Assembly (NCBI GenBank): GCA_900319865.1
Contig: ONQD01000018.1
Span: 1 to 48,872, forward strand
From: an uncultured Bacteroidales bacterium
Lineage (GTDB): Bacteria; Bacteroidota; Bacteroidia; Bacteroidales; P3
DNA length: 48,872 nt
Reading direction: 5' to 3'
In this document: piece after piece, positions 1,886 to 45,700 of the stretch
How positions within the stretch are numbered: the first letter of the stretch is position 1
How the letters are laid out: the number at the start of each line of letters is the position of its first letter
Program-made: the position numbers and the translations under genes
The notes under the pieces: generated by a model
The model's input: only the letters and a program-made list of their open reading frames with translations
Database searches by the model: none
Told to the model about the DNA's origin: nothing

Positions 1886-3235
1886 TCAAAGTAGTGGTGT
1901 CATATAGTATGGTAGATATACCACATCGTTTTCTGTCTTGAAATCTTTGTCATGGATGATGTAAGAGGTTGAAAGGTATTGCCCATATTTAGCCCGTAGC
2001 TTTTGAAGTGACACAGTTGTGTAATTCTTGCCAGACTTCACCTCGATGGGCGAGATATTGTGCCTGCTGGTTGGCATGGGTTTGCGAATCAGGAAGTCTA
2101 TCTCCATTCGCTCCTCAGCCTTCTTCGAGGTGGATGAGTAGAAATATAGCCTATGCCCTGAGGCACGGAGCATCTGCGCCACAATATTCTCCACCAGCAT
2201 CCCTTGGTTAATCTCGATTTTGTCGAGCAGGAGTTTGCGGTATATTTCACCGTTCGCGATGTCGCTTTCGTCAAAAGCAAGGCTGATAAGAAGCCCTGTA
2301 TCGGCCATATAACACTTCAATGTTGTGTTGTCGGCGTTCATCCTCAGCCCCACATTGGGTGCAGTGGTATTATGGCAGATGTTGACAATCATGGCTTCGT
2401 TCAACCAGAGAAAGGAGTTTTCATAGTCTTTGAACCTTGCCCCTTTTACCAATGCCGCCAAGGTAAACTTCTTCTCGTGCTTTTGGAGTTGCGAAGGTAT
2501 CAAATCCAACACAGAGGCCACTTTTGATTCATACCCGTCGGCATACTTATATATGTCCGACCTATATAAGTCGATAATATCCCGTTTGACGCGGTCGGTC
2601 TGCTCAAAGTCGCGGGTGGCAACAAAGGTTGATACGGCCTGTGGCATTCCGCCCACAATAAGATACTGGCGGAACAAGTCCATGGCTTTCCGATGCATCA
2701 GGGGACCCATTGGTTGCTGCTTTTCGAAGTGGCTGCGAATGAAGTCCATCAATACATCATTGCCAGTAGCCCATAGGAATTCCTCAAAGTCCATCGGGTA
2801 CATCTTCAGATGCCGTTCCTCCGATGGAATGATAATCTCTTTTACATTTCGCTGGAGGGAGGTGAGTGAGCCAGTCTCGATATAGTCGTACCTTCCGTCT
2901 GCAACCAAATACTTAATGGCAGCTCTGGCCCGGGGACATTCCTGAACTTCATCGAACACCACCAGCGACTTACGCGGAATGAGTTTGACCCCATAATAGG
3001 TGCTAAGGTTCATAAACAGCGTATCCAAGTCGTCGAGGTATTCCTCAAACATCTGCTTTACAGATATAGGGGCTCTGCCAAAATCAATTATCAGTGATGA
3101 ATCGTACTCGTTTTGTGCAAATTGTTGGACAATATAGCTCTTGCCCACACGTCGGGCACCATCTATCAACAGGGCTGTATGCCCTTGTTCTTTGCCTTTC
3201 CAATCTAACAATGTGTTGTATATCTTTCTTTTCAT
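1886..3235 (-). CDS. AAA ATPase with DUF4143 / PD-(D/E)XK-like C-terminus (ATPase 1)
   Basis: Predicted cytosolic protein of about 449 residues. The start was set at MKRKIYNTLLDW (3235) rather than an ATG five codons upstream, because the paralogue at 4126-5475 has the same MKRKIYN start. Walker A is DGARRVGKSYI (about residues 24-34) and Walker B is LVVFDEVQ. The C-terminal half is DUF4143-like: it has a helix with LVENIVAQ, then EIDFLI and PIEVKSGK, the spacing of a PD-(D/E)XK nuclease-like fold. Members of this family (AAA_14 + DUF4143, COG1373) are common in Bacteroidota and archaea but their job is poorly known. Three direct repeats of 33-bp period lie directly upstream. It is the first of five family members in this region. 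Confidence 0.9.
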   Translation of the reverse strand: MKRKIYNTLLDWKGKEQGHTALLIDGARRVGKSYIVQQFAQNEYDSSLIIDFGRAPISVKQMFEEYLDDLDTLFMNLSTYYGVKLIPRKSLVVFDEVQECPRARAAIKYLVADGRYDYIETGSLTSLQRNVKEIIIPSEERHLKMYPMDFEEFLWATGNDVLMDFIRSHFEKQQPMGPLMHRKAMDLFRQYLIVGGMPQAVSTFVATRDFEQTDRVKRDIIDLYRSDIYKYADGYESKVASVLDLIPSQLQKHEKKFTLAALVKGARFKDYENSFLWLNEAMIVNICHNTTAPNVGLRMNADNTTLKCYMADTGLLISLAFDESDIANGEIYRKLLLDKIEINQGMLVENIVAQMLRASGHRLYFYSSTSKKAEERMEIDFLIRKPMPTSRHNISPIEVKSGKNYTTVSLQKLRAKYGQYLSTSYIIHDKDFKTENDVVYLPYYMTPLL

Positions 3236-3246
3236 ATACCCCAATA

Positions 3247-3345
3247 ACACAAAACGAGATTTTTTATTGTACGAAAACTACACAAATCGAGATTTTTTAT
3301 CTTCGTATTTCTACACAAATCGAGATTTTTCCGCCCTTCTGTTTC
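3247..3345. repeat. Three 33-bp-period direct repeats upstream of ATPase 1
   Basis: The core ACACAAATCGAGATTTTT (first copy ACACAAAACGAGATTTTT) starts at 3247, 3280 and 3313, exactly 33 bp apart, with less conserved DNA between. The array ends 12 bp before the ATPase 1 start codon. A conserved box, TCTACTTTTCATGGTGC, follows at 3344-3360. The layout is like iterons or phased operator sites. Each neighbouring ATPase has an array of the same period but a different sequence. Confidence 0.9.
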
Positions 3346-3432
3346 TACTTTTCATGGTGCAACATATCATAGTATTCAGTGGTTTGTTTGCCATAAAATT
3401 ACTTCAAAAGGTAATAATCTAAAAAAAAGTTG

Positions 3433-3440
3433 TATATTTG
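3433..3440 (+). promoter_or_regulatory. Promoter -7 box for the small ORF/HTH pair
   Basis: TATATTTG fits the Bacteroidota -7 consensus TAnnTTTG. It is preceded by an A-run and TTG and lies 27 bp before the ATG at 3467. Confidence 0.6.
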
Positions 3441-3503
3441 CATTTGAATTATAAACAATATGTAGGATGACAAGAGTTTACATAGAAAAGGTTCAAAACC
3501 AAG

Positions 3504-3722
3504 ATGCGATTGTATTGCTTGCGTATGTCCGACAGTGTTCTTATTGTTGGCAATGGCGGAATTAAAAGAACCAAGACATATGAGGAGGACGAGAGCCTTA
3601 ACGGGTATGTCATAACCTTGCAAAAACTTGACAAACTTCATAATCATGCTATAAAAAGTGGTAAGGTGATTATTGAAGAAACCATGATATCAGGTATAGA
3701 CAAAACAGAATTTGACCTATGA
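3504..3722 (+). CDS. Small unknown protein coupled to an HTH regulator, probably frameshifted
   Basis: I do not recognise the family. The open frame gives 72 residues ending SGIDKTEFDL. Its stop overlaps the ATG of the next gene in an ATGA arrangement, so the two are translationally coupled, as toxin-antitoxin pairs often are. The best-placed start after the promoter, however, is the ATG at 3467 in another frame, which reads MTRVYIEKVQNQDAIVLLAY and stops at 3565. Joining that N-terminus to the second frame near 3525 (MSDSVLIVGNGG) would give a protein of about 85 residues. So this is either a shorter protein starting at 3504 or 3525, or a gene broken by a one-base indel. A toxin role is only inferred from its position. 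Confidence 0.4.
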   Translation: MRLYCLRMSDSVLIVGNGGIKRTKTYEEDESLNGYVITLQKLDKLHNHAIKSGKVIIEETMISGIDKTEFDL

Positions 3723-3988
3723 GCAAGACAACTGATCTTTTCAACGAATGTGTCGCGTCTACTCCACAGGACGTTAAACAGCGTGTCGATTGGTCTTTCC
3801 AAATTGCCGACAAGATAGACCATATACATAAAGAACGTGGTATGACACAGAAAGACTTTGCCAAACAGATTGGCCGTTCAGAGGCAGAGGTGAGCCGTTG
3901 GGTTGGCGGTACGCATAACTTCACTTTGGCAACCCTCGCAAAAATATCGACGGTACTGGAAATACCATTGATAAGTGTCGCTGTATAA
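3719..3988 (+). CDS. XRE-family helix-turn-helix regulator, antitoxin-like
   Basis: 89 residues. The helix-turn-helix lies at about residues 37-70: MTQKDFAKQIGRSEAEVSRW, then a short wing and TLATLAKISTVLEIPL. This is the Cro/C1-type fold, probably a dimeric DNA binder. It is co-transcribed with the upstream small ORF, whose last codons it overlaps, so a role as autoregulator or antitoxin of that pair is likely though not shown. It lies between two DUF4143 ATPase genes on the opposite strand and could also affect their arrays; nothing in the sequence tests this. Confidence 0.8.
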   Translation: MSKTTDLFNECVASTPQDVKQRVDWSFQIADKIDHIHKERGMTQKDFAKQIGRSEAEVSRWVGGTHNFTLATLAKISTVLEIPLISVAV

Positions 3989-4125
3989 TTTTGGTTATCC
4001 ATTCCTCTGATATGTTGACGTGTTAATATGTTGGTTTCTTCGCAACCGTCGTTTTCTCGCCTCGGCATAGTGCAAACACTGCGTGATTTGCCCTCTGCAC
4101 CCGGCTTATCGAAAACGTTCTTTAA

Positions 4126-5475
4126 TCAAAGGCATTGGGTCATGTATAAGGGAATATATGTGATGCCTTCTTTCTCACAATAGTTGCCCGAATGTATCAC
4201 ATAAGGTGTTGCCATGTATTCCCCATACTTGGCCTTGCATTTTCTCAGTGACGATAAGGCATAGTGGGTTGACGACTTCACCTCGATTGGAGTGATATTG
4301 TGCCGGGAAGTGATAGATGGCTTTCTGACAAGGAAGTCAATTTCCATATTATCCTCTCTGTTATGGGATGGGTTGGAGTAAAAGTACAATTTGTTGCCAG
4401 CAGTATGAAGCATCTGCGCTACAACATTCTCAACCAACATACCTTTATTGATTTCCAATTTGTCAAACATCAGTTTCTTATATATCTGACCCACCTGTAT
4501 GTCGTTTTCATCAAATGCCATTGCAATGAGCAACCCTGTATCGGCCATATAGAGCTTCCGCTTGGCATCATCACGGCTCAGACTTAGGCTCACATTGGGT
4601 TCTGTAGCAGCATAGCAGACATTAACCACCCTGGATTCTTCAAGCCAAAAGAAAGCATTGGCATAACTGCGTGTTCGTGCTCCTTTCTCCACTTCACTGA
4701 TACGAAAACGTTTTTCGTGACGTTGCAACTGCGAAGGGAGCGTATCGAAAATGCGGGTCACTTTTTGTTCGTAACCAGTGGCATATTTGCTGATATCTGC
4801 ACGATAGAGGCTTAAGATGTTTCGCTTGATATGGTCCACCTTGTCGAAGTCTTTGTCGTGGGTATATGACTCAACCGCCTGAGGCATGCCACCAACTATC
4901 AGATACTCGCGAAAAAGGGTCATCGCTTTGCGATGCAGAGCCTCGCCCAAGGGTTTGCCCGATGCGAAGCAGTCTCTAATATAGTCCATGAGTTCATCGT
5001 TCCCCATAGCCCATAAGAATTCCTCGAAATCCATCGGGTGCATATTGATGCGCTCTTCTTCTGACGGAATGACAATATCCTTCACATTCTTGTTGATACT
5101 GACCAGCGAACCTGTTTCGATATAGTCGTATCTGCCATCTTTAACAAGATGTTTGATTGCGGCTCTTGCAGGTGGGTATTGCTGTACTTCATCAAAAACA
5201 ATTACAGACTCACGCGGATATAGCTTTACATCCTTCATTAGCGACAACATTCGAAAGAAAGTATCCAAGTCGCTGAGCTGCTCTTCGAACAAGAGTTTCA
5301 GCTGCTTGTCCTCCTTACTAAAGTCTAAAAGGATGTATGTCTTATACTCGTTTCGTGCAAATTCTTCTACTATGTAGCTCTTGCCAACACGCCGGGCACC
5401 ATCAATCATAATGGCTGTTTTACCATTCCAAGTATTTTTCCATTCGAGTAATTTATTGTAAATCTTTCTCTTCAT
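4126..5475 (-). CDS. AAA ATPase with DUF4143 / PD-(D/E)XK-like C-terminus (ATPase 2)
   Basis: 449 residues from MKRKIYNKLLEW. The longer frame adds ten codons that run back into the promoter repeats, so I reject that start. Walker A is DGARRVGKSYIVEEF; Walker B is VIVFDEVQQYPPARAA. The C-terminal half carries MLVENVVAQMLHTAG, MEIDFLVRKP and ITPIEVKSS, a PD-(D/E)XK-like set, and ends IPLYMTQCL. It is close to ATPase 1 along its whole length, so the two are true paralogues. A TATATTTG promoter box sits at 5503-5510 within its own 34-bp-period array. A deleted copy of this same gene lies at 5936-6046. Confidence 0.9.
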   Translation of the reverse strand: MKRKIYNKLLEWKNTWNGKTAIMIDGARRVGKSYIVEEFARNEYKTYILLDFSKEDKQLKLLFEEQLSDLDTFFRMLSLMKDVKLYPRESVIVFDEVQQYPPARAAIKHLVKDGRYDYIETGSLVSINKNVKDIVIPSEEERINMHPMDFEEFLWAMGNDELMDYIRDCFASGKPLGEALHRKAMTLFREYLIVGGMPQAVESYTHDKDFDKVDHIKRNILSLYRADISKYATGYEQKVTRIFDTLPSQLQRHEKRFRISEVEKGARTRSYANAFFWLEESRVVNVCYAATEPNVSLSLSRDDAKRKLYMADTGLLIAMAFDENDIQVGQIYKKLMFDKLEINKGMLVENVVAQMLHTAGNKLYFYSNPSHNREDNMEIDFLVRKPSITSRHNITPIEVKSSTHYALSSLRKCKAKYGEYMATPYVIHSGNYCEKEGITYIPLYMTQCL

Positions 5476-5484
5476 AATATTATT

Positions 5485-5586
5485 GCACCAAATTAGACTT
5501 TGCAAATATACGAATTTTACACCAAATACAACTTTTTGGCAGTATTATTTTTACACCAAATATGGGTTTAGCACCATTCTGAGTGT
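5485..5586. repeat. Three 34-bp-period direct repeats upstream of ATPase 2
   Basis: The core (G/A)CACCAAAT starts at 5485, 5519 and 5553, exactly 34 bp apart. The second and third units also share CAACTTTTT/ATTATTTTT-type flanks. The sequence is unlike the ATPase 1 repeats. The shared box TCTACTTTTCATGGTGC follows at 5586-5602. Confidence 0.9.
5503..5510 (-). promoter_or_regulatory. Promoter -7 box of ATPase 2
   Basis: On the minus strand this reads TATATTTG, 28 bp before the start codon at 5475. It lies between the first and second repeat cores, so a protein bound to the repeats would cover the promoter. Confidence 0.6.
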
Positions 5587-5692
5587 CTACTTTTCATGGT
5601 GCTTCAGGTGCTCAATAATGCAACAGCCTGAAAAAGCGGACCGCACTTGGTCTGTACCGCATTGAAAAAGTGGGCTACACTCTGAAATGGGT

Positions 5693-5812
5693 CTATCCAA
5701 ACTGACGAATCGAATAGGACTTTCCCGTTTGTCTGGCTCCGGTAAGAAGCAATGTCTTATTGGTACTTTTATAAAATCTACATAAATGACTATTAATCTT
5801 CCTTTTAAGCAT
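5693..5812 (-). pseudogene. N-terminal remnant of a DUF4143-type ATPase
   Basis: From the ATG at 5812 the frame reads MLKRKINSHLCRFY, then LLLTGARQTGKSYSIRQFG and a TAG at 5693-5695. The start and the Walker A box are clearly those of the ATPase family, but nothing of the remaining 400 or so residues follows. The DNA beyond (5602-5692) is unrelated and includes short repeats of AAAAAG. Its upstream array of TTTTCCA cores is still present, so the promoter region outlived the gene. Confidence 0.8.
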
Positions 5813-5824
5813 AATAATGTCCGC

Positions 5825-5896
5825 TTTTCCAATTACAATTATACAAAAAATGCCTGATTTTCCAACATTATTTTTGTCAAAACATTACTTTTTCCA
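5825..5896. repeat. Three 32-33-bp-period repeats upstream of the ATPase remnant
   Basis: TTTTCCA occurs at 5825, 5858 and 5890, spaced 33 and 32 bp. The core is shorter than in the other arrays, perhaps through decay. The box at 5906-5922 (TCCATTTTTCATGGTGC) differs from the other copies at two positions. Confidence 0.7.
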
Positions 5897-5935
5897 CCTC
5901 TCCGTGTCCATTTTTCATGGTGCAACAGGTGCAAC

Positions 5936-6046
5936 AAAAGGCATTGGGTCATGTATAAGGGAATATATATGATGCCTTCTTTCTCACAATAGTTGCCCGA
6001 ATGTATCTTTCCATTCGAGTAATTTATTGTAAATCTTTCTCTTCAT
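5936..6046 (-). pseudogene. Deleted copy of ATPase 2 (both ends joined)
   Basis: On the minus strand, the start and first 13 or so codons of ATPase 2 (MKRKIYNKLLEWK) run directly into its last 23 or so codons. The join at about 6004-6008 falls at a shared GTAT. About 1.25 kb is missing, and the join is out of frame, so translation stops after 20 codons. The upstream array (cores at about 6056, 6090 and 6124) and the box at 6157-6173 are also copied almost unchanged. This is a recent duplication followed by a large internal deletion. Confidence 0.85.
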
Positions 6047-6055
6047 AATGTAATT

Positions 6056-6156
6056 GCACCAAATTAGATTTTGCAGATATACGATTTTTACACCAAATAC
6101 AACTTTTTGGCAGTATTATTTTTACACCAAATATGTGTTTAGCACCATTCTGAGTG
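6056..6156. repeat. Second copy of the ATPase 2 repeat array
   Basis: Nearly identical to 5485-5586, with only a few changes (for example TTTTGCAGATATACG in place of CTTTGCAAATATACG). It keeps the 34-bp period apart from a small indel and the GCACCATTC end. Confidence 0.8.
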
Positions 6157-6178
6157 TCTACTTTTCATGGTGCACAGG

Positions 6179-7407
6179 TTACAAGAACATGATATAGTAA
6201 ATTGGCATATATGTGGTGGCATTCTCAGTTCGGGAGTCGCCCTCATTGGACAGAACTAAGGCGGACTGCACCCGGTAGTCAGGATTGGCAATGAAACGAT
6301 CGAGAGCCCGATGGGTGGAGTAGTCTTTGCCCGACTTCACCTCGATAGGCAACACCGTGAGGCTGTCGTAGTCATCTATCAAAAAGTCCACCTCGCCCTT
6401 CTGCTTGTTATCGTAATAGAAAAGCGTATGCCCATGAGCCTGCAACTCGGTGGCGACAACGGTTTCATACACCGAGCCAAGATTGATGCTGAGCTGGTCA
6501 TCCTTGATGGCAGTGACATTGTTCCGAAACAGAACATACGACAACAGCCCCACGTCGTTCAGATAGAGTTTCAACAGGTTCTTTTTGGCCGAGCTTATCA
6601 ACGGGAATGTGGGATTGGCTATTGCCCGCACCTCAAGAGCCACCCCTGCACTAATAAGGTACTCTATGTCGTCTTCGTAGTCGCGTGCCGCCTTCCCCTT
6701 TTTCTCTTCCACATCATTGAAATGGAGGCGTTTCTTGAGAGGTTGAATATCTCTTCGTGTATCTTGCGGACACGGTAGATATTCTGTGAGTCGAGATAGG
6801 TGTTGACTGCTTGAGGCAGGCCTCCGACCAAAAGGAATGTCTTGAACAGTTCCAACATGTGGCGGTGCAGACCGTCGCTGTGGCTTTCGCCGTTCTTAAA
6901 CTTCGTCCTCATGCTCTCAATCAACTCGTCGCCAACGCTATTAGCCCAGAGAAACTCCTCGAAGTCGAGCGGGTACATGTGCTCTACCTGTATTCGTCCT
7001 CCAGGGATGGACAGCGTTTTATGCATGGTCACACCCAGGAGGGAACCGCTGACAACGTAGGTAAATCGCCCTTCGTCAGACAGAAACTTCAGCAAGGTGA
7101 GCATGGAGGGGTAGGCCTGTATCTCGTCAAGAAAGACCAACGTATTGTCTTTCGTCCCCAAACGCCTACCGGCAACAGCACTCAGACGTACATAGAAATC
7201 TTCCGTCCCTTTCACATCGGCAAAAACACGTGCCCCATCCCTGTCGTCAATCATGTTTATCTCGACAAAATTGGGGAAAGCGGCACGTCCTTCGTGCTGA
7301 ATAATGTACGACTTCCCCACCTGACGAGCTCCATCAATGATGAGAATTTTGCTTCTGTCAGAACTAAAATACTCTTTGAGCGTTTGTTGTATCTTTCTCC
7401 TTAGCAT
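6179..7407 (-). pseudogene. DUF4143-type ATPase 3, broken by an internal frameshifting deletion
   Basis: The 5' part starts at 7407 (MLRRKIQQTLKEYF), with Walker A IDGARQVGKSYII and Walker B LVFLDEIQAYPSML. It reads normally to HEEIFNLS near 6740 and then leaves frame, ending at 6664. The other frame picks up at KKRLHFNDVEEKKGKAARDY and continues to the normal C-terminus with VDFLIDDYD and PIEVKSGKDYS. Alignment by eye with ATPases 1 and 2 shows about 28 residues missing between the halves (the IYKYA...IPSQL segment). So roughly 80-85 bp, not a multiple of three, were lost. The protein should be non-functional unless each half acts alone. Confidence 0.85.
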
Positions 7408-7429
7408 ATCGTAGCTGTATTTGACAGTG

Positions 7430-7437
7430 CAAAAATA
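7430..7437 (-). promoter_or_regulatory. Promoter -7 box of ATPase 3
   Basis: It reads TATTTTTG on the minus strand, 22 bp before the ATG at 7407, and abuts the first GGAAAAAGTTGTA repeat unit. Confidence 0.65.
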
Positions 7438-7546
7438 CAACTTTTTCCAAAATTAGCAGGTTATTTTTACAACTTTTTCCATTTTTTAGAGGCAACTTTT
7501 ACAACTTTTTCCAATTATACAGGGGTGTTATTTACAACTTTTTCCA
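7436..7546. repeat. Four 32-33-bp-period repeats upstream of ATPase 3
   Basis: TACAACTTTTTCCA occurs perfectly at 7436, 7468, 7500 and 7533, spaced 32, 32 and 33 bp. On the coding strand the core is TGGAAAAAGTTGTA, and the unit nearest the gene merges into the promoter box. The array ends 4 bp from the stop codon of the next operon. Confidence 0.95.
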
Positions 7547-7550
7547 TTTT

Positions 7551-8795
7551 TTAGTTCGTAACAAACGTCCGCTGCTCGCCATAGACGGTGCCAGCACTGT
7601 TGGTGGCGTAGGCCCTAACATAGTAGGTGGTATGTGTGCTAAGCCCTGTCATCTGACTCACAAAGGAGCCTAGTCCCACGCCATCGTTAGTGTGGAGACC
7701 AGCAATAGTCGGGTCGGGAGAGGTGCTATAACAAATGCCCCTGTTGGTGATGGGGAAGCCCCCGTCGGCGATGACGGTACCTCCACCAATGGCAGTGGTG
7801 CTGGTGACATTGACCACATCGGCAGTGGTGACAGTGGGTAGACCACTCTGAGTGGTGAAACTGACCTGCTCGCCGTATGCCACGCCGGCACTATTACGTG
7901 CATAGGCTCTGAGATAGTAGGTGGTACCGGGCTCAAGACTGGCGATACTGCTTAAAAATTCGCCCAGGCCTGTACCGTCGGTGGTGTGGTTGTTGTTGAC
8001 GGTAGGCTGCATGGCGGTACTCCAGCAGACCCCTTTGGCGGTGACGGGGAAGCCACCGTCGGCACTCACATGGCCTCCTGCCGTGGCTGTGGTGGAGCCG
8101 ACATTGCTGACCTGACGTGTGCTCACGGTGGGAAGCCCATCCAAAGTGGTGACAACCATCTGTTCGCCATATCCCACGCCGACACCGTTGCGGGCGTAGG
8201 AGCGGATATAGTAGGTGGTGTGCGGCGAAAGGCCTGAAAGCGTGGCATCGAATGTCCCTACACCATGTCCCACAGCTTGCTTCAAGTTATCGACTGTGGG
8301 GTACTGCATCTGTCCATAGACAAAGCCCCGCTCCACGACGGTGGAATTGCACGAGTCAGTGACCTCGCCATAGCAATGCACGGTGGAGGCGGTGACATCG
8401 GCAGTGGAGAGGGTGAGAACCACCGGCACATTGGGACCTGCAAGATAGATGGTGCCAAGGTCGTAGGTCTCGACTCCATAACGTATATTGCTAAGGCTGA
8501 CATCACGGCTGTTGTACAAGGAGTCGGCCTCGATATGCAGATAGTATCCTTTGCCCTGCTCGTCCAGGCTGACGCTGATGTCAAAGCGCCCTTCGGCAGT
8601 TGTGTAGACGACAGCAGAGGTCATGGTGCCATCGGTTGAGAGCACCCGTATTCCTTCAAGGGGGTGTTGGGTACGTTGGTCAAGCACAACACCGTGACAT
8701 TTTGTCGCTTCAAAATGTCCCTCCTCCTGCAAATCCTTGACACAGGACGAAAAGAGCAGTAGTGACAGTAATGTGATGAGTAAGGGTCTATGCAT
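7551..8795 (-). CDS. Surface lipoprotein with carboxypeptidase-like domain and Fn3-like repeats
   Basis: 414 residues. A lipobox ends at Cys18 (LLLFSSC), so it is exported and lipid-anchored. Residues of about 30-115 resemble a carboxypeptidase-regulatory beta-sandwich (GVVLDQRTQHPLEGIRVLST). Three copies of a repeat of roughly 95 residues follow, each ending in a strand such as TTYYVRAYATNSAGTVYGEQ, the pattern of fibronectin-III-like domains in Bacteroidota surface proteins. These domains usually mediate binding; no catalytic residues are visible. It is the last gene of the sigma/anti-sigma operon and starts 3 bp after the previous stop. The ligand cannot be told from the sequence. Confidence 0.8.
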   Translation of the reverse strand: MHRPLLITLLSLLLFSSCVKDLQEEGHFEATKCHGVVLDQRTQHPLEGIRVLSTDGTMTSAVVYTTAEGRFDISVSLDEQGKGYYLHIEADSLYNSRDVSLSNIRYGVETYDLGTIYLAGPNVPVVLTLSTADVTASTVHCYGEVTDSCNSTVVERGFVYGQMQYPTVDNLKQAVGHGVGTFDATLSGLSPHTTYYIRSYARNGVGVGYGEQMVVTTLDGLPTVSTRQVSNVGSTTATAGGHVSADGGFPVTAKGVCWSTAMQPTVNNNHTTDGTGLGEFLSSIASLEPGTTYYLRAYARNSAGVAYGEQVSFTTQSGLPTVTTADVVNVTSTTAIGGGTVIADGGFPITNRGICYSTSPDPTIAGLHTNDGVGLGSFVSQMTGLSTHTTYYVRAYATNSAGTVYGEQRTFVTN

Positions 8796-10212: not shown

Positions 10213-11670
10213 TTAAGCTGTTTGTATTATTTTTGGTGATTGTTTTTTGTATCGGTTTGATATCTGACCCACTTTGGCACCCTTGCAGGTGGGGTCGCAT
10301 ACCACATATCGATTGTTCTTGTACAGATAGTAGTCGCCTTTGACATTGGCATCCTTGGGAAAGCATACGGCAGCGGCCACATGGTCGGCATACTCCAGAA
10401 GCACCACATCGACACCCACAAACATACGGACAAGATAGCTGAAGAGCAGTGCCCTGTCCTCACAGTCGTTGGCGGGATAATAGAAGTTCTCCTCGCAGAA
10501 ATAGTTCTTCTCCCGACCGAACTGGAGGTTGTCGACCTGATAGGCGAAACCCTCCTGGACATATTGCAGCAAGGTTGAGACTGCACGATAGGTGTTTTTG
10601 CCTTCAATCAAAGGCTTGATATTACGTTCCAAGGCCAAGTAAAAGACTTCATCGATAGCGGAGTTGGCATACATGTGAAGCTCCATCTGGGGATAATGGG
10701 CATAGAAGTCCATCAGGCCTTGGTTGACATAGATGGTAATGTCCCTCCCTCCAAATGAGTTTTTATAGGGGTTGGAACAGAGTCTGCCGCCCAACTGCGG
10801 GGTTTCGTTCACAAGGAGGTCGATGCCGTGATTGGCTCCATCGAGCTGATTACCGTAGGTGTACAATCTGCCTTTGAGTTCTTCGTTGGCTCCAAAGGGT
10901 CGGAAGGCATAATAACGGACATTGCTCACCACGGTGAAAGGAGTGTCGTAGATTTTGCTGACAGAAGCCATCAGGATGACCAGATTGCCCCCGACACGTC
11001 CCATTCTTACGTCGTAATGCATCGCGTTAAGGAGGTAAACAGAGAGGGCTACCTGTTGGTCGGCATTGTTCGGGTATATCTGGGCAGCGAGTAGGCGGGT
11101 CAGATCGAAAAGGCCCCACCCGTTCAGTCGTAGCTCCTGTTTTTGCCCAGCCAGTTGAAGCGTCACTTGGTTCATTTTCTCATGATTCAACAGCTGCCAA
11201 TAATTCGAAATCTGTTGTTCACGGGTTCCCGAGAGCTTTATCTTGGATACATTGACAGGCACCTTGAACGTGAGCTGTTTTCCATAAAAAGTGATATTGA
11301 ACACCTCGGCAACATGGGTGGCGACTTTATCTGTTGTGGTAGGTTGGAATTGTTCAACTTGGAGTGTCACCATATCGCCTATGGGCAACTGTTCGGAGTG
11401 GAGGGTGTCGGGGAGCGTATCCGATTCGGGCTGGAGGACAGGCTCGGGTCGGACAGGTTGTTGTTCGCCTTTGAACAGCTGCATTTCGTCCCAGCGTTGC
11501 TTCAGATATTGGATGAACTGCTCGTTGATAGAATCCTTGTATTCCTCAAATTGCTTTTGATATTGCTGCTTATACTCCTCCATGGCTCTTTTCCTTGCCC
11601 CAGTGTCAACCTGAGACATGGCCACCATAGGCAGTAGCAGCAATATCATTATGAGCAATCTATTCTTCAT
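10213..11670 (-). CDS. Exported transglutaminase-like protein
   Basis: 485 residues with a signal peptide (MKNRLLIMILLLLPMVAMSQ). A charged, probably coiled region follows at about 25-75, then a beta-rich middle. The C-terminal part has a papain/transglutaminase-type triad in order: Cys in YYPANDCEDRALLFSYL (about residue 401), His in YADHVAAAVCF (about 429) and Asp in RYVVCDPTCKG (about 460). Such domains act as proteases, peptide crosslinkers or inactive binding modules. It overlaps the anti-sigma gene upstream by 11 bp, so the two are co-translated. Enzyme activity is inferred from the triad alone. Confidence 0.7.
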   Translation of the reverse strand: MKNRLLIMILLLLPMVAMSQVDTGARKRAMEEYKQQYQKQFEEYKDSINEQFIQYLKQRWDEMQLFKGEQQPVRPEPVLQPESDTLPDTLHSEQLPIGDMVTLQVEQFQPTTTDKVATHVAEVFNITFYGKQLTFKVPVNVSKIKLSGTREQQISNYWQLLNHEKMNQVTLQLAGQKQELRLNGWGLFDLTRLLAAQIYPNNADQQVALSVYLLNAMHYDVRMGRVGGNLVILMASVSKIYDTPFTVVSNVRYYAFRPFGANEELKGRLYTYGNQLDGANHGIDLLVNETPQLGGRLCSNPYKNSFGGRDITIYVNQGLMDFYAHYPQMELHMYANSAIDEVFYLALERNIKPLIEGKNTYRAVSTLLQYVQEGFAYQVDNLQFGREKNYFCEENFYYPANDCEDRALLFSYLVRMFVGVDVVLLEYADHVAAAVCFPKDANVKGDYYLYKNNRYVVCDPTCKGAKVGQISNRYKKQSPKIIQTA

Positions 11671-12031
11671 TGTAGGGGAGCATTTCGCTGGTGATTGAGT
11701 CGGTCATATCAATTGTGTCCTGTTCGGCAAAGGCAGGAGACTGTGTTATCTGCATTCCATTGTTTCTAGTTGTGAAGAACCATGCAAGGCCCACCAACAA
11801 CAAGACGGAGGCAGCTGCTGCCCATGGAATGAAACGGTGAGTTTCTTTCTTGGTGGCAAGGCTGGTGGCTTTCTTTTGTGCTTCGATGGCGGCGACAATG
11901 TTCGTCAAGTCATCTATGTTCTCGTCGCTTTGAGACATATAGTCCAACACCTCGGACTCTTCGGCTTCTGTGCATTGTCCGCTGAGGTACTTGGCAAGCA
12001 GCTCATCAGATATTTCTTTTTTGTTCTCCAT
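11660..12031 (-). CDS. Anti-sigma-factor-like inner-membrane protein
   Basis: 123 residues. The cytosolic N-terminus (ISDELLAKYLSGQCTEAEES, then VLDYMSQSDEN) matches the start of FecR-type anti-sigma domains. One transmembrane segment follows at about 70-88 (FIPWAAAASVLLLVGLAWFF), and only about 35 residues lie outside, so it lacks the full periplasmic sensor of FecR. It starts 4 bp after the ECF sigma gene. It probably holds that sigma factor at the membrane; how the signal is passed is unknown, and the overlapping transglutaminase-like gene is a candidate partner. Confidence 0.75.
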   Translation of the reverse strand: MENKKEISDELLAKYLSGQCTEAEESEVLDYMSQSDENIDDLTNIVAAIEAQKKATSLATKKETHRFIPWAAAASVLLLVGLAWFFTTRNNGMQITQSPAFAEQDTIDMTDSITSEMLPYNEE

Positions 12032-39734: not shown

Positions 39735-42700
39735 CTATTGTTTGACAACGCGTTTGATGGCAGAGCCGTCGCGACCGAATGGGAGCAATGTCTCTCTCCT
39801 TGAGCCGTCGTGCAGCGTGATGCGCAGAGTGTATGCACCTGTAGGCAGATGGTGGATGTCTATCACATTGCTCTCATGGAAGGTGGCAACAATGCGGCCG
39901 TACTGGTCAAACACCTCTATTTTTGCGACACCGTCAGCCACGACGGTTATCTTGCCCGTAGTTGGATTGGGGTAGAGCATGACATTGCCGAGGCTATCTA
40001 CTGCAGTGATACCTACATCAGTGATGGTTAACATCAGCACAATTACGCTGTCGCACCCAGCTTCGGTCTGGCCTTCAAATGTGTACATGCCACTTTCTGT
40101 GTAGGTGTTACCCTGCCACTCGTAGCTACCTGCAGCAGAGTCGACAATAGTGTCGCGACTGCTGTAATTGATGGTGAGGTTCAACGTGATGACACTGTCA
40201 CAATCGCTGTGGTTCGCAATGGTCACAGTAGGCTCATTAGTGGATGCAGTGTAAGTATTACCGTCAATCCAAGTGATGCTGTCGCAGGCTGTGACCGATT
40301 CGGTGGCAGCACTGCTGTAGTTGATGGTGAGGTATAGAGTGATGACACTGTCGCATCCCTGTGCGTTGGTAGCGGTGACACTGTCGACAGTGGATGCAGT
40401 GTAGACCGTTCCATTCCACGTGAGGCTGTCGCAAGCGGTGACAGACTCCGAGGCAGCACTGCTGTAGTTGACAGTCAGGTGGAGTGTCACCGTACTGTCG
40501 CAGCCAGCCATGTTACTCAATACATGCGTGGCATCATTCGTGCTACTTGTGTAATTCGTGTTCCACCAGGTATAGCTGTCACAGGCAGTGGCCATCGTGT
40601 CGCCAGTGTTGCTGTAGTTGATGGAGAGGAGTAGTGTCACTGTGCTATCGCAGCCCGCAGCATTGGTCGAGACAAACGTGGGCGTATTGGTTGAAGCCGT
40701 GTAGACCACGCCATGCCATGCGAAACTGTCGCAGGCGGTAATAGTCTCTATGCCAGCATTGCTGTAATTGACAGTGAGGTAGAGAGTGGTGACACTATCG
40801 CATCCCTGAGCGTTGGTGGTGGTAATGGAGTCAACAGCAGAGGCTGTGTATACGGTTCCGTTCCACATATAGCTGTCGCAAGTTGTGACGGACACCGTGC
40901 CGGCGGTACTGTTGTTGATGGTAAGGTGGAGGGTCACCGTACTATCGCAACCGACAACATTCTGAGTCGTATAAGTGGGAATCTGAGTACTTGCAGTGTA
41001 ACTGTTTCCGTGCCAGATAAAGCTGTCGCATGCCGTGATGGTCTCGGTGGCAGTAGTGCTTTGATTAAGGGACAGGTAAAGGGTGTCGACATTGGTACAA
41101 GCTGAACTTGACTGGGTATGGTCGTAAATATAGATGCCGCTGGAGGTGTACGTCTCACCATTCCATTGATAGCTGTCGCATGCCACAACGTGGTACGCTG
41201 TGTCGTCATGGGTGTTGATATTGAGATGAAGCGTATCAGTGCTGGGACAACCAAAGCTATTCATGTACGCATATTGATATGTGCCAGAGGCGGTATAGTC
41301 GACTCCGTGCCATGTATACACTTCACACGCATCATGATGGTAGCTGTTGTGGGTGCCATAGTTGACCGTCAGATTAAGAGCTATTGTGCTATCGCATCCG
41401 TATGAATTGAGAGTTGAAAACAGGAAATTGGAAGTAGATGCCGTAAAAGTGCTGTCATGCCAGGTGTAATTGTCGCAGGCCGAAACGGTGACTGTGTCAA
41501 AAGCGCTGTAGTTGACAGTTAGGTGGAGCGTCACCGTGCTGTCGCAACCAACGGCATTGGTGGTAGTGTAGGTAGGCATAGCAGAGGCGGTGTAGGTAAT
41601 TCCGTGCCATGTATAGTTGTCGCAAGCCGAAACCGCTTCAGTGCCGGCACTGCTATGGTTGACCGTGAGGTGGAGCGTCACGGTGCTGTCGCAGCCGGCA
41701 ATATTGGAGGTTAAATAGGTGGGAGTGCTGGTAGAACTTGTGTAGGCAGTGCCATGCCATGCGAAGCTGTCGCAAGCCGTGACAGACACAACGGTCGTGT
41801 CGCTGTAGTTTATTGTCAGGTCGAGGGTCACGACACTGTCGCAACCTGCAACATTCTCCAACGTATAGGTCGGAGTGTTAGTACTGGCAGTATAGACCAC
41901 CCCATGCCACGTAAAGGCGTCGCATGCGACTTGCCTGTCGATACCTGTATTACTGTAACCAATTGTCAGGTACAACGTATCGACATTGGTACAGGAAGAA
42001 TTCGCTGCAGAGTGGTCGAACGTGTACATGCCGCTTGATGTGTAGGTTTGTCCATTCCACATATAACTGTCGCAGGCCGTCGCATAAATAGTAGTGTCGT
42101 CATGAATGCTGATATCGAGGTGGAGCGTATCGGTACTGGGACAGCCATCATCATTTAAATACGCATATTGATAGGTACCCGTGGCGGTGTAGTCAGTTCC
42201 GTGCCACGTATAGCTTTCGCAAGTCGTGACCGTCTCCGTATTAGCCGTGCTGTAGTTGATAGTCAGGTGAAGCGTCACCGTGCTATCGCAACCAGCCACA
42301 TTCGTGGTAGAGTATGTTGGGCTTGACGTGCTGGACGTATAAGTATTGCCGTGCCATGTGTAGCTGTCGCAAGCCGTAACCGTCTCCGAAACCGTATCGC
42401 TGTAGTTAATAGTTAGGTTGAGGGTCACCACACTGTCGCAGCCAACGGCATTGGTGGTGGTGTAGGTAGGCGTTGCGGTAGCGGTGTAAGTGGTACCGTG
42501 CCAAGTGTAGCTGTCGCAGGTGGTAAGAGTTTCAGATGAACTGGTGCTGTGGTTGATGGTTAGATGGAGGGTCGCCAAGCTGTCACAGCCATTAATATTG
42601 GTAGTATGGTATGTACGGGTGCCAGACGTGGTAAAGGTGTTGTAGTGCCAGGTGTAGCTGTCGCAGGCAGTGATGTACTCGGTGCCAGAGGTGGCGGTAT

Positions 42701-45700
42701 GAATGGTGAGGTGCAGCGTTGCCACACTGTCGCAGTCGTCGTGGCCAGTGGTGTGATATACATAGGTACCGCTGGAGGTGTACGTCTCGTCATTCCAGGT
42801 ATAGCTGTCGCAAGCCGTCACGTATGTGGTGGAATTGCAGTGCAGTCCCTCATAGAAATCGTACGACACGGACATGTTGCCCGAGCCCTCGGCATCGTGT
42901 ATGGCAAGGTAGCAGACACCATATTCCCATACACGGCAACCCTTCCAAGTCAGCACACTGTCGCCCGATGCGTGCAACACCATCTCTCCGCTCGGAGAAT
43001 ATAGCTGCATGGTGCAGCGGCGGTTGGTATGGAACGAGAGGCTGTCGCCCACGCCCGACTCCAACTTGAACCAGTGAATCTGGCCTGTGCCGGGTGTGGC
43101 AAAATACTTGGTTGTGTCGCGCTCAAGGGTGTCGGCCAATACTGTTTCCACCACCCGACGGTCTACATACTGACGGGTGGCACTTGTCAGCCGCAGGGCA
43201 CTGTTCCAGAAGCGGAAGGTGATGTTGTTACGGGAGCGGATGATGGGTGTACCCCCGTTGGGAACAAACTCGAAGTGGTTGGTATTGATGGGCATTGTGT
43301 CCACCTGCAACAGGGTAATCACCTGTAGAGTATCAACGAAGGGTGTCACATCCACCACTGTCCTATTGTCGAAGTCGTCGTTTATCCAGTACTCATAGCG
43401 GCTGATGCCCTCACCACCTGCGGGCACCGTATAGAACCAGGCTTGGTGTAACGCCATGCTGGTGCCGTCGCTGGTCATCAGACATCCCACAAGCGAGTGC
43501 AACCCTGCACCCGTGTTGTCCACATCCAGATCCATGTGTATCATTCTGTTTTGTGGCGTCACTTGTAGCGTGGGCTTCAGCACCCCGTCGATGGCATAGC
43601 GGTAGACCAATGTCGATGTGTCGGACAATGCCGCATTGCAAGGCACCTTGTAGAAGACATAGCTGCGCAACTCAGCCGAGGCTCCGCTGCCAGTCTGCAT
43701 GTTCAAGGTATGCAGGCCGTCGGTGAGGTTCCCCGTGTTGAGGAGTAGGGTACCCGTTGTGAGTTCGCCGGACACACGGTTGTCGTAGTCCCTGTCGAAC
43801 CAGCAGGTATATACAAGATCTGAACTGCCTTCAAACGGCATCTTGAAGAAGATGAAGCTGCGTAACTCCGCTGTGGAACCCTTGGCTATCTGCATGTTCA
43901 GCGTGTGCGGGCCGTCGGACAGATTCCCCACGTTCAGGAGCAGGGTGCCGTTGTGGAAGCGGCCGGACACACGGCTGTCATAGTCCCTGTCGAACCAGCA
44001 GGTATAGATACGGTCCGAACTGCCCTCAAACGGCATTTTTAAGAAGACGTAGCTGTGCAGCTCTGCCAAGGCACCGTCACCAATCTGCATGTTCAGCGTG
44101 TGCAGGCCGTCACTCAGCCAGTTGACATCCACCTGCATATTGGTGTCGGCAATGGGGAGAGTTTGCCGCGAGGCATAGTTCTGGTCGAACCAGCAGGTGT
44201 AGGTCATGTTGCTGTCGATACCCCTGTAGAACTGTGCCGAACGCGGGGGGCTGCATCGCCCTTCATTGTCGCGCAAGTGTACGTACAACGTATGGAGCCC
44301 GACATCCAACGAGCTGACATCTATCTGTCCCTGCCAGCCCGTAGAAGTCGCCACGGCGGTCTGGCGGATATCGTATTGTTGGTCGAACCAATATTCCACT
44401 ACGTTGTCCACAGGGTTGGTGATTGTCAGATGTAGTGTATCCACCTGTGTGCAGCCGTTGTCATCCGTGAGGCTATGCATGTAGTCGCCCGAATAATAGT
44501 AATCCAAGCCGTACCACGTGTATCTCCAGCCGGCGGTGGCGGTGGTGGCAGTGTGTTCCGGATGGTTGATAGTCAGGTGCAGGACATCTGACTGGGGGTC
44601 ACCGTTGTCATCGGTGTAGGTATAGGTATAGTCACCGCTTTCGGTATAGGTGGTTTCATGCCACGTGTAGCTGTCGCAGGCGGAGACGGTGAGGACGTCG
44701 ATGGGTGGAGCGGCTTCGATATGGATATTGTCGATGGCTGCCCCAGGGTTGTTGCCGCGTCTATTATTATTACGCCAATAGAACACGAGGTTATAATCAC
44801 CCGCTTCGGGGATAGTAATAGTGGAGGACTGGGTAGTCCAGTCAGAATTTTGAATAAGTTGGCTGCCACCATCTATCGGGATATATCCTTCGGACAATAA
44901 ACTATAATTCCAAAATTCTACTGAAGGGAGATGCATATATGCGGGTACCAGTGCGGCACGCAGGTAATCGTAATTCCTTTCGCCGTTGGCCTTCCAGTCG
45001 AAACTGACCGTATAGCAGCCTGCCTCCAAGGAAAGAAGACGATAAGCCATCACCGATGAGGATTCAGTATGAGAATAGCTATCGGTTGTTCCACCGTTCT
45101 TGCTGATGTACAAGGCATGACTACCGCCCTCGGTATGATTGGTTGCCTCCCCTATAGCCCACTGATTGGTGCCGTCATTGCCTACTTTCATCCAGCAACT
45201 GGTATTTCCTTCAAAGTCCTCGGTATAGGGTGGTGCAACAATACACACTGAATCTACCATACCCTTCACATTCACCTTTCCCCAACCCCACAGGTTGCTA
45301 CCTGTGTTGGGATCAATAACGCCAGTAAAACTATCGGTTTTTGCAGAATTATGCAAAAGAGTGATGGCTTGTGCGTATGTCAAGTTGGGATTTGCCTGCA
45401 AGCATAACGCCATTAGACCCGTGACAAAAGGTGCTGCCATTGAGGTTCCAGACATTGCTCCATAATATTCTGTATCTCTATGAAATAATGAATGACGAAA
45501 TGTTGTTGACGATACAATATCTCTACTATCAAAGGCTTCGTCGAACCTGTTGATTGATGATATAATAATATCTCCTGGAGCAACAATGTCTGGTTTTGTT
45601 CTGTCGTCTAATGTCGGACCATGTGAAGAAAAAGTGGATAAAGAGTCTATCGTCGGTATTGGGAGAAAAGTTCGTAAGTTATGTAAGCCAAGAGGTCTAA

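Follow-up and report, generated by a model that had tools for sequence, protein, structure and literature searches.

Helically spaced direct repeats that lie by an autoregulated promoter and are bound by an oligomerising protein are found in the iterons of Rep, the parC sites of ParR and the MalT boxes, and MalT is itself a STAND ATPase. A 48,872-nucleotide stretch of DNA from an uncultured Bacteroidales bacterium (ONQD01000018.1, contig 28 of a 2.9-Mb draft genome; hereafter the window) holds at its left end a minus-strand run of DUF4143 ATPase genes, each of which was originally predicted to have its own upstream array of direct repeats with a period of 32-34 bp. In layout these arrays resemble iterons, parC and MalT boxes (no replication, partition or regulon role was looked for or seen), whereas the putative reader here seems to be a loop of a nuclease domain. 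The nearest system found in the literature is RptR, a repressor of a phage-defence island whose promoter contains three direct repeats that overlap the -10 box and are bound by it (PMC12255303). RptR, however, is a small regulator separate from what it controls, and its repeats are 9 bp long and centred on a TAGCTA palindrome; in contrast, the DUF4143 cores are about 16-18 bp long, mostly non-palindromic and spaced by 33 or 23 bp, and their putative reader is the ATPase-nuclease. TAGCTA is absent from the window cores (a separate regulator was not searched for). Toxin-antitoxin operons and restriction controller proteins, as described in that paper, are likewise defence genes that control their own promoter, whereas DUF4143 is a single gene with no antitoxin and its nuclease would read its own operator. 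The arrays do not fit the CRISPR pattern of identical repeats with long unique spacers, since repeat and spacer together span no more than 23 or 32-34 bp (no search for cas genes was made).

PDC-S01 is described as an ATPase fused to a PD-(D/E)XK nuclease and is reported as the fourth most common defence across prokaryotes; most such PADLOC candidates still await validation (PMC12988326). A rumen survey also reports it as the most frequent individual locus (PMC13356809). In the window, the PDC-S01 models are matched by the two intact ATPases, 1 and 2, and by each of the two parts into which gene 4 is split; DUF4143 ATPases are suspected phage-defence genes. In the main text of the PDC-S01 paper, nothing was found on PDC-S01 repeats, promoter, upstream region or regulation (PMC12988326). 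Neither operator arrays nor autoregulated defence genes are new in kind. In the literature searched (bioRxiv and most subscription papers lay outside its scope) we found no account of the PDC-S01 mechanism, no system of the kind seen here, in agreement with the original prediction, and no report of what the sequences suggest, namely that every paralogue of an NLR-like ATPase-nuclease may have an array to itself and read it through a loop in its nuclease domain.

Repeat arrays upstream of DUF4143 ATPase genes

Arrays had been predicted upstream of four family members in the window, and all four were recovered with the predicted periods. Array 1 comprises three copies of AATCTCGATTTGTGTA on the minus strand (3246-3261 with two mismatches, 3279-3294 and 3312-3327; spacing 33 and 33 bp) and precedes ATPase 1 (1889..3235, minus). 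Array 2, three minus-strand copies of (T/A)ATTTGGTG (5481-5494 with three mismatches, 5515-5528 and 5549-5562; spacing 34 and 34 bp), precedes ATPase 2 (4129..5475, minus). Upstream of a gene remnant lies array 3, three copies of TGGAAAA (5825-5831, 5858-5864 and 5890-5896, minus; spacing 33 and 32 bp), and array 4, upstream of ATPase 4, consists of four exact copies of TGGAAAAAGTTGTA (7436-7449, 7468-7481, 7500-7513 and 7533-7546, minus; spacing 32, 32 and 33 bp). A fifth array (6052-6065, 6086-6099 and 6120-6133, minus) sits on a partial copy of ATPase 2, within a 96% copy of the gene 2 start and its array. Arrays 1, 2 and 4 scored 40, 36 and 42 of a maximum of 42, compared with at most 28-29 in 60 dinucleotide shuffles per region; the array 3 core is too short for a score of its own.

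The prediction of four family genes held for ATPases 1 and 2, which are intact proteins of 449 residues with 59% identity, both combining AAA_14 and DUF4143 (for ATPase 1, PF13173 at E 1.2e-23, PF13635 at E 3.3e-24 and PADLOC PDC-S01 at E 2.9e-119); a search of NCBIfam assigned neither to a family. The third proved to be an N-terminal remnant (5693..5812, minus; MLKRKINSH...TGARQTGKSYSIRQFG followed by a stop in a three-frame translation), and ATPase 4 is split over two frames (6179..7410, minus; AAA part 6664-7410, DUF4143 part 6179-6712), each of which matched PDC-S01 when searched separately. The decayed partial copy of the ATPase 2 unit, which carries the copy of array 2 (5937..6173, minus), was resolved by blastn of the window against itself into a stop end with 98.6% identity over 71 bp and a start plus array with 95.9% over 171 bp, the middle being absent. 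A stretch near GTGTCTACTTT, perhaps the end of an insertion sequence (IS), borders the far side of arrays at window positions 3341, 5583 and 6154 (plus strand) and, in the opposite orientation, at loci L095, L100, L103 and L109. A mobile cassette bounded by a common flank, GTGTCTACTTTT, was considered, but the orientation of the flank in the window is opposite to that in relatives; this flank, too, is perhaps an IS end.

The genome of the window has 22 DUF4143 matches, 20 of them above the cut-off, and an array was present in 9 of its 16 scorable upstream regions (genes 1, 2 and 4 and L006, L007, L012, L014, L015 and L019). For a wider survey, DUF4143 genes were gathered from the genus, family and phylum, excluding those with less than 180 bp upstream or many Ns, and the 147 usable upstream regions were reduced to 93 by dropping proteins that were at least 80% identical (77 from the own family, 16 from the rest of the phylum). 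Defined strictly by a three-copy score of at least 34, arrays were found at 36 of the 77 own-family genes and at 3 of the 16 others; these counts are conservative, as the start-codon estimate clipped the last copy of window arrays 1 and 2. The same score was reached by only 2 of 119 AT-matched control regions, and by 7 of 275 overall (40 stretches, own genome). An earlier control set of 188 genes was AT-poorer than the targets (53% vs 65%) and was replaced by the AT-matched one; six of its genes scored at least 34, two of them being arrays downstream of DUF4143 genes. The lag profile peaked at 23 and 32-34 bp and their multiples, without any other clear peak, while controls were flat at about 2% per lag. 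For the family as a whole, both expectations of the original prediction, that many homologues elsewhere carry arrays and that the period is enriched relative to other genes, were borne out.

The arrays fall into two period classes, 33 ± 1 and 23 bp, which differ by about one helical turn, and contain up to 13 copies. The predicted constancy of a period of about three turns therefore applies to the window arrays (32-34 bp), whereas one subfamily uses 23 bp. In a tally of 128 proteins less than 70% identical, made with a slightly laxer score, 66 of the 83 members of the main subfamily carry arrays of the 33 class, and 10 of the 17 unscored members show a two-copy pair at a lag of 32-34. Other subfamilies had arrays in 8 of 17, 6 of 8, 7 of 7 (all of the 23 class), 2 of 7 and 0 of 6 members. 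Family genes lie on genome contigs and in some cases on plasmids, and the number of DUF4143 matches ranges from 0 to 22 per genome within one genus. Beyond the phylum, we scanned GTDB species contigs and took the best 80 of at least 394 relatives (39-64% identical to ATPase 1), whose titles include Bacteroidales, Clostridia, Spirochaetales, Bifidobacterium, Collinsella, Mobiluncus, Holdemania, Kiritimatiellae and a Thermoplasmata archaeon; these titles are mostly those of metagenome bins, and individual taxon labels may be wrong. A scored array was present in 53 of these best 80, and 61 had z > 4. The period was 33 in 42, 34 in 9 and 32 in 2 of the 53 arrays; the archaeal locus, with a score of 27, shows two copies by eye only.

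The DUF234 STAND-nucleases (PF03008; PDC-S27-like), a sister family with a similar overall plan of an ATPase plus a nuclease-like part, occur in the same host family but differ in that none of the 16 usable of 20 loci carried an array. Inspection by eye showed palindromes instead, placed between the promoter and the start codon, at DUF234 loci L370 (around TTACAGTAAT), L373, L378 and others; similar ones at L001 (GGAGTCCAACTCC) and L004 were noted as well, and all of these are perhaps private operators of another geometry. Additional repeats were observed in other settings. At L084, L080 and L118, the array upstream of the gene has further copies, oriented alike, immediately past the stop codon, and the gene after the downstream array of L084 starts, by eye, like RNase R. 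An 18-bp direct repeat, AAACTAGAATATCT, precedes a control gene at L093 (minus, 296-1409) whose start resembles a membrane transporter, and repeats of 24 and 22 bp precede the non-DUF4143 genes at L134 (minus, 10236-11754) and L137 (minus, 7294-8515), possibly as orphan arrays.

Private cores and a nuclease-domain loop that covaries with them

Cores differ among paralogues within one genome, as originally proposed. In the own draft genome, the array 1 core (up to two mismatches allowed) occurs three times, always within array 1, and the exact array 4 core four times, always within array 4. Core similarity follows protein identity: it averages 15.8 of 16 positions at 95-100%, 13.7 at 80-95% and 13.4 at 70-80%, and drops to 10.6 at 60-70%, 10.3-10.7 at 30-60% and 9.7 under 30%. 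Orthologues thus keep their core and switch it below about 70% protein identity, while the spacers drift, a pattern that is hard to reconcile with a shared host factor. The exact core of the L102 type occurs 23 times in 11 of the 189 family genomes searched, including at five L102-type genes (genomes G002, G005, G039, G060 and G146). Other occurrences mark remains of such genes: L391 (1022-1175) is a fossil array of three copies followed by only the first 13 ATPase codons, and L393 has a single copy beside a remnant of the gene 3' end. At L392 (about 1563-1640, minus), an L102-type array with its promoter precedes a 43-codon frame starting MNFESLVGRINQVQDVLQ, which resembles the start of DUF1016 proteins and is possibly a case of promoter capture by another gene; we did not accept it as a firm case because the frame stops after 43 codons. 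Single copies were also found at L394, with no such gene nearby, in contig C36 of the own genome and in G133.

The AlphaFold2 model of ATPase 1 (mean predicted local distance difference test score 89.9) has the fold of archaeal STAND ATPases and of NB-ARC, with a winged helix, also resembling Orc/Cdc6, and a PD-(D/E)XK nuclease fold and motif in residues 312-449. The Walker A and B residues G26, G31, K32, D95 and E96 are kept in all 128 proteins, and the nuclease residues in nearly all (E349 in 126, E378 in 123, D380 in 127, E398 in 119 and K400 in 121). Searches with ATPase 1 found no relative among Protein Data Bank sequences (phmmer) and, as sole query, no match in viral contigs; the nuclease domain alone gave no Foldseek match below E 0.001, an absence that means little.

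In order to relate protein residues to core bases, we computed mutual information in two clades. Clade 1 comprises proteins at least 47% identical to ATPase 1, of which 54 of 70 had a usable motif (51 anchored on a constant GTG, three placed by hand). Among 449 x 18 pairs, mutual information was highest for 371/-6 (residue/base), followed by 369/-5. Both residues belong to a nuclease-domain loop that is flanked by strands 363-368 and 377-384 and lies just before the catalytic E378 and D380; the codons for residues 367-375 of ATPase 1 map to 2111..2137 (minus; derived by hand from 1889-3235). The counts come from a 61-row table in which the registers of ATPase 1 and L093 were shifted by one base by hand, a shift absent from the tree simulations described below. 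Of the 34 rows with Arg or Lys at 371, 30 have G at -6, compared with 0 of 27 for other residues; two of the four exceptions (L308 and L340) are spurious anchors. His371 (nine rows) is accompanied by T, C or no fixed base, and A stands at -6 in 13 of the 18 rows without Arg, Lys or His. Similarly, G stands at -5 in 9 of the 12 rows with Tyr369 and in 0 of the 49 with other residues. On the tree, the 371/-6 pair involves 12-13 changes and yields eight independent pairs, of which a mean of 6.7 agree and none oppose (median p 0.016). The third-best pair, residue 388 with base -8, was driven by ATPase 1 and L093, whose register between the two half-motifs is one base shorter, and was not counted.

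Clade 2, whose proteins are 38-47% identical to ATPase 1 and of which 46 of 64 genes were usable, was aligned separately and given a motif of its own; it pointed to the same loop. Here residue 374 and motif position 11 formed the best pair, and the top 20 also included residues 370, 373, 368 and 372. For example, loop KDE-KH goes with CGGGG and KDE-TH with CGGTA, and loops longer by one residue (ESGKH, ENGKH) go mostly with TGAG, while shorter ones (EN-RH, GN-KH) go mostly with TGCG. When evolution was simulated on each clade tree (built without the loop; 300 runs each), the observed loop maximum was reached in 0 of 300 simulations in either clade, and five clade 2 loop residues in the top 20 likewise in 0 of 300.

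The clade 1 rule was also applied to genes outside the set from which it was derived. L329 (T369, E371; 71% identical to its nearest row) has A and A as predicted, and L389, on a phage-labelled contig (Y369, K371; 68%), has GG in all four copies. L108, L111 and L114 (Y369, K371), which have too few copies for the 61-row table, show GG by eye; the predicted GA is also present at L336 and L340, both of them near relatives of rows behind the rule. A natural pair is provided by L217 (Bifidobacterium panos, H371, CTGCATATCGTG) and L223 (Collinsella, K371, CTGGATATCGTG), whose proteins are 76% identical and whose arrays differ between -14 and +2 only by C versus G at -6. The original prediction had asked whether the core covaries with specificity-like residues, and it does so in both clades, at loop 367-375. 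It had also considered a DNA-acting role for the C-terminal PD-(D/E)XK-like part, which this covariation suggests for the nuclease domain, and had left the reader as either the ATPase or a partner. The covariation favours the ATPase, and that it recognises its own array is very probable and the firmest part of our account.

Promoter geometry and a predicted autoregulatory operator

A promoter box inside or beside the array had been anticipated for at least two window genes and was seen at arrays 2 and 4. The TAnnTTTG -7 box TATATTTG (5503-5510) lies between copies of array 2, and TATTTTTG (7430-7437) overlaps the last, gene-proximal copy of array 4, with a second TAnnTTTG at 7448-7455. No TAnnTTTG box was found at array 1. 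More generally, boxes were sought in the 51 genes with an anchored motif (29 from Bacteroidota, 22 from other phyla). In Bacteroidota, a TAnnTTTG box was present in 22 of 29 genes, starting at +3 relative to GTG in five, +5 in one, +12 in eight and +15 in one. In the other phyla, the best sigma-70-like -10 box lay 3-6 bases past GTG in 12 of 22 genes, 12-13 in four, 16 in one and elsewhere in five. A position 3-6 or 12-13 bases past GTG was thus shared by 14 of the 29 Bacteroidota and 16 of the 22 others. Two distinct promoter codes therefore share the same pair of phases relative to the array, which is what an operator would show, and this overlap favours self-regulation, one of the two roles that had been predicted.

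Taken together, each array is probably a private, cooperative operator through which the DUF4143 ATPase-nuclease behind it would repress its own gene. The ATPase-nuclease would bind its own core of about 16-18 bp, with loop 367-375 reading the variable half. Copies on nearly the same face of the DNA, about 33 bp (3.1 turns) or 23 bp (2.2 turns) apart, would allow an oligomer to line up, and one copy running into the -10/-7 box in many genes would mean that binding occludes RNA polymerase and shuts the gene off. Such negative autoregulation would also keep the nuclease low and tethered, distinct cores would insulate up to about 20 paralogues per genome from each other, and a phage trigger would release the latent nuclease. 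Repression of the own gene is what we infer from the array-promoter geometry; we likewise infer physical binding, cooperativity, a latent nuclease and a phage trigger. A tentative extension, which we hold to be possible but rather less than even in likelihood, is that the NLR-like ATPase-nuclease and its private array form a two-part, self-addressed immune system in which parked oligomers act as a latch that shuts both promoter and nuclease. Phage interference, whether through competing DNA, through proteins of repair or recombination or through takeover of the promoter, would then release the assembled nuclease and derepress the gene, with the cores as insulated channels of the paralogues.

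Several observations weigh against this operator reading. No array was scored in 7 of the 16 regions of the own genome or in 39 of the 128 non-redundant proteins, including all six members of one subfamily, 9 of 17 of another and 5 of 7 of a third. As to the code, L213 and L219 are real cases of Lys371 without G at -6, L227 and L219 carry Tyr369 without G at -5, and the 369/-5 link, with four independent pairs only, is not significant alone. Two loop residues in the top 20 of clade 1 were reached in 31 of 300 simulations, and the overall maximum of mutual information in 4 of 300 in each clade. Among the additional genes, the two copies at L334 (Y369, K371) disagree, one with GG and one with AA, L309 gave an unclear fit, and L388, a Segatella copri plasmid gene (N369, A371), fits at -5 and not at -6. 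With regard to the promoter, seven of the 29 Bacteroidota rows have the box elsewhere and seven have none, ATPase 1 among the latter, and seven of the eight +12 rows are close relatives, ATPase 2 included. Finally, in the sequences read from the 23-bp class, the promoter begins only after the end of the array, an arrangement that would fit activation too.

That last geometry, with arrays of the 23-bp class wholly upstream of the promoter, is also what might be expected if the array were mainly a loading or assembly site in the style of an initiator-iteron or partition-centromere system, where the ATPase is activated or parked and the promoter overlap is a by-product. The regular spacing of 23 or 33 bp in up to 13 copies and the STAND/NLR and Orc/Cdc6-like fold would suit such a site, but the arrays directly precede the gene, the promoter box often keeps a recurring phase relative to one of the copies, and the two cores checked (arrays 1 and 4) occur nowhere else in the genome, so that we regard this as unlikely. 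We give still less credence to a selfish or homing nuclease that cuts matching arrays in other alleles and thereby spreads its own gene. Retention of the PD-(D/E)XK residues, genes flanked on either side by array copies (L084, L080 and L118), the uneven number of matches among genomes (0-22 each within one genus), the presence of the same subfamily in many phyla and the decayed copies in the window are all compatible with homing. However, resident genes retain their own arrays, two-sided copies are rare among the 48 genes examined, and the promoter phases would be left unexplained.

A separate regulator encoded elsewhere, akin to RptR or a controller protein, could also bind the arrays, and RptR, which represses a defence island via three direct promoter repeats, offers a precedent (PMC12255303). 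It would require one dedicated regulator per gene (neighbouring genes were not surveyed), and the cores differ between paralogues, follow the protein and covary with residues of the ATPase, which makes this explanation very improbable. Functionless chance or AT-rich tandem repeats have a negligible likelihood: the upstream regions are indeed AT-rich, but AT content as the origin of the arrays is ruled out by the AT-matched controls (2 of 119) and the shuffles, the lag profile has no other clear peak, and cores are conserved between orthologues while spacers are not.

Neighbouring genes and significance of the arrays

Apart from the ATPase run, the window includes a reverse transcriptase of the AbiP2/DRT defence kind (1-1401, minus; PADLOC E 8.2e-173) that reaches its left edge, and an antitoxin-like helix-turn-helix protein (3722-3985, plus) matching PDC-M64C (1.9e-27). 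Further to the right, an open reading frame of 2509 codons (39735-47264, minus) shows, by eye, a signal-like start and many repeats of the ACDSYTWHGxTYT type.

For the family as a whole, the array together with the residue-base code leads to predictions of which DNA is bound, where it is bound and which single changes would switch specificity. The array also serves as a simple annotation mark for family members and their fossils. The private cores suggest how a genome keeps some twenty similar nucleases apart, and, if the latch were real, it would represent a new way to restrain an NLR-like effector.

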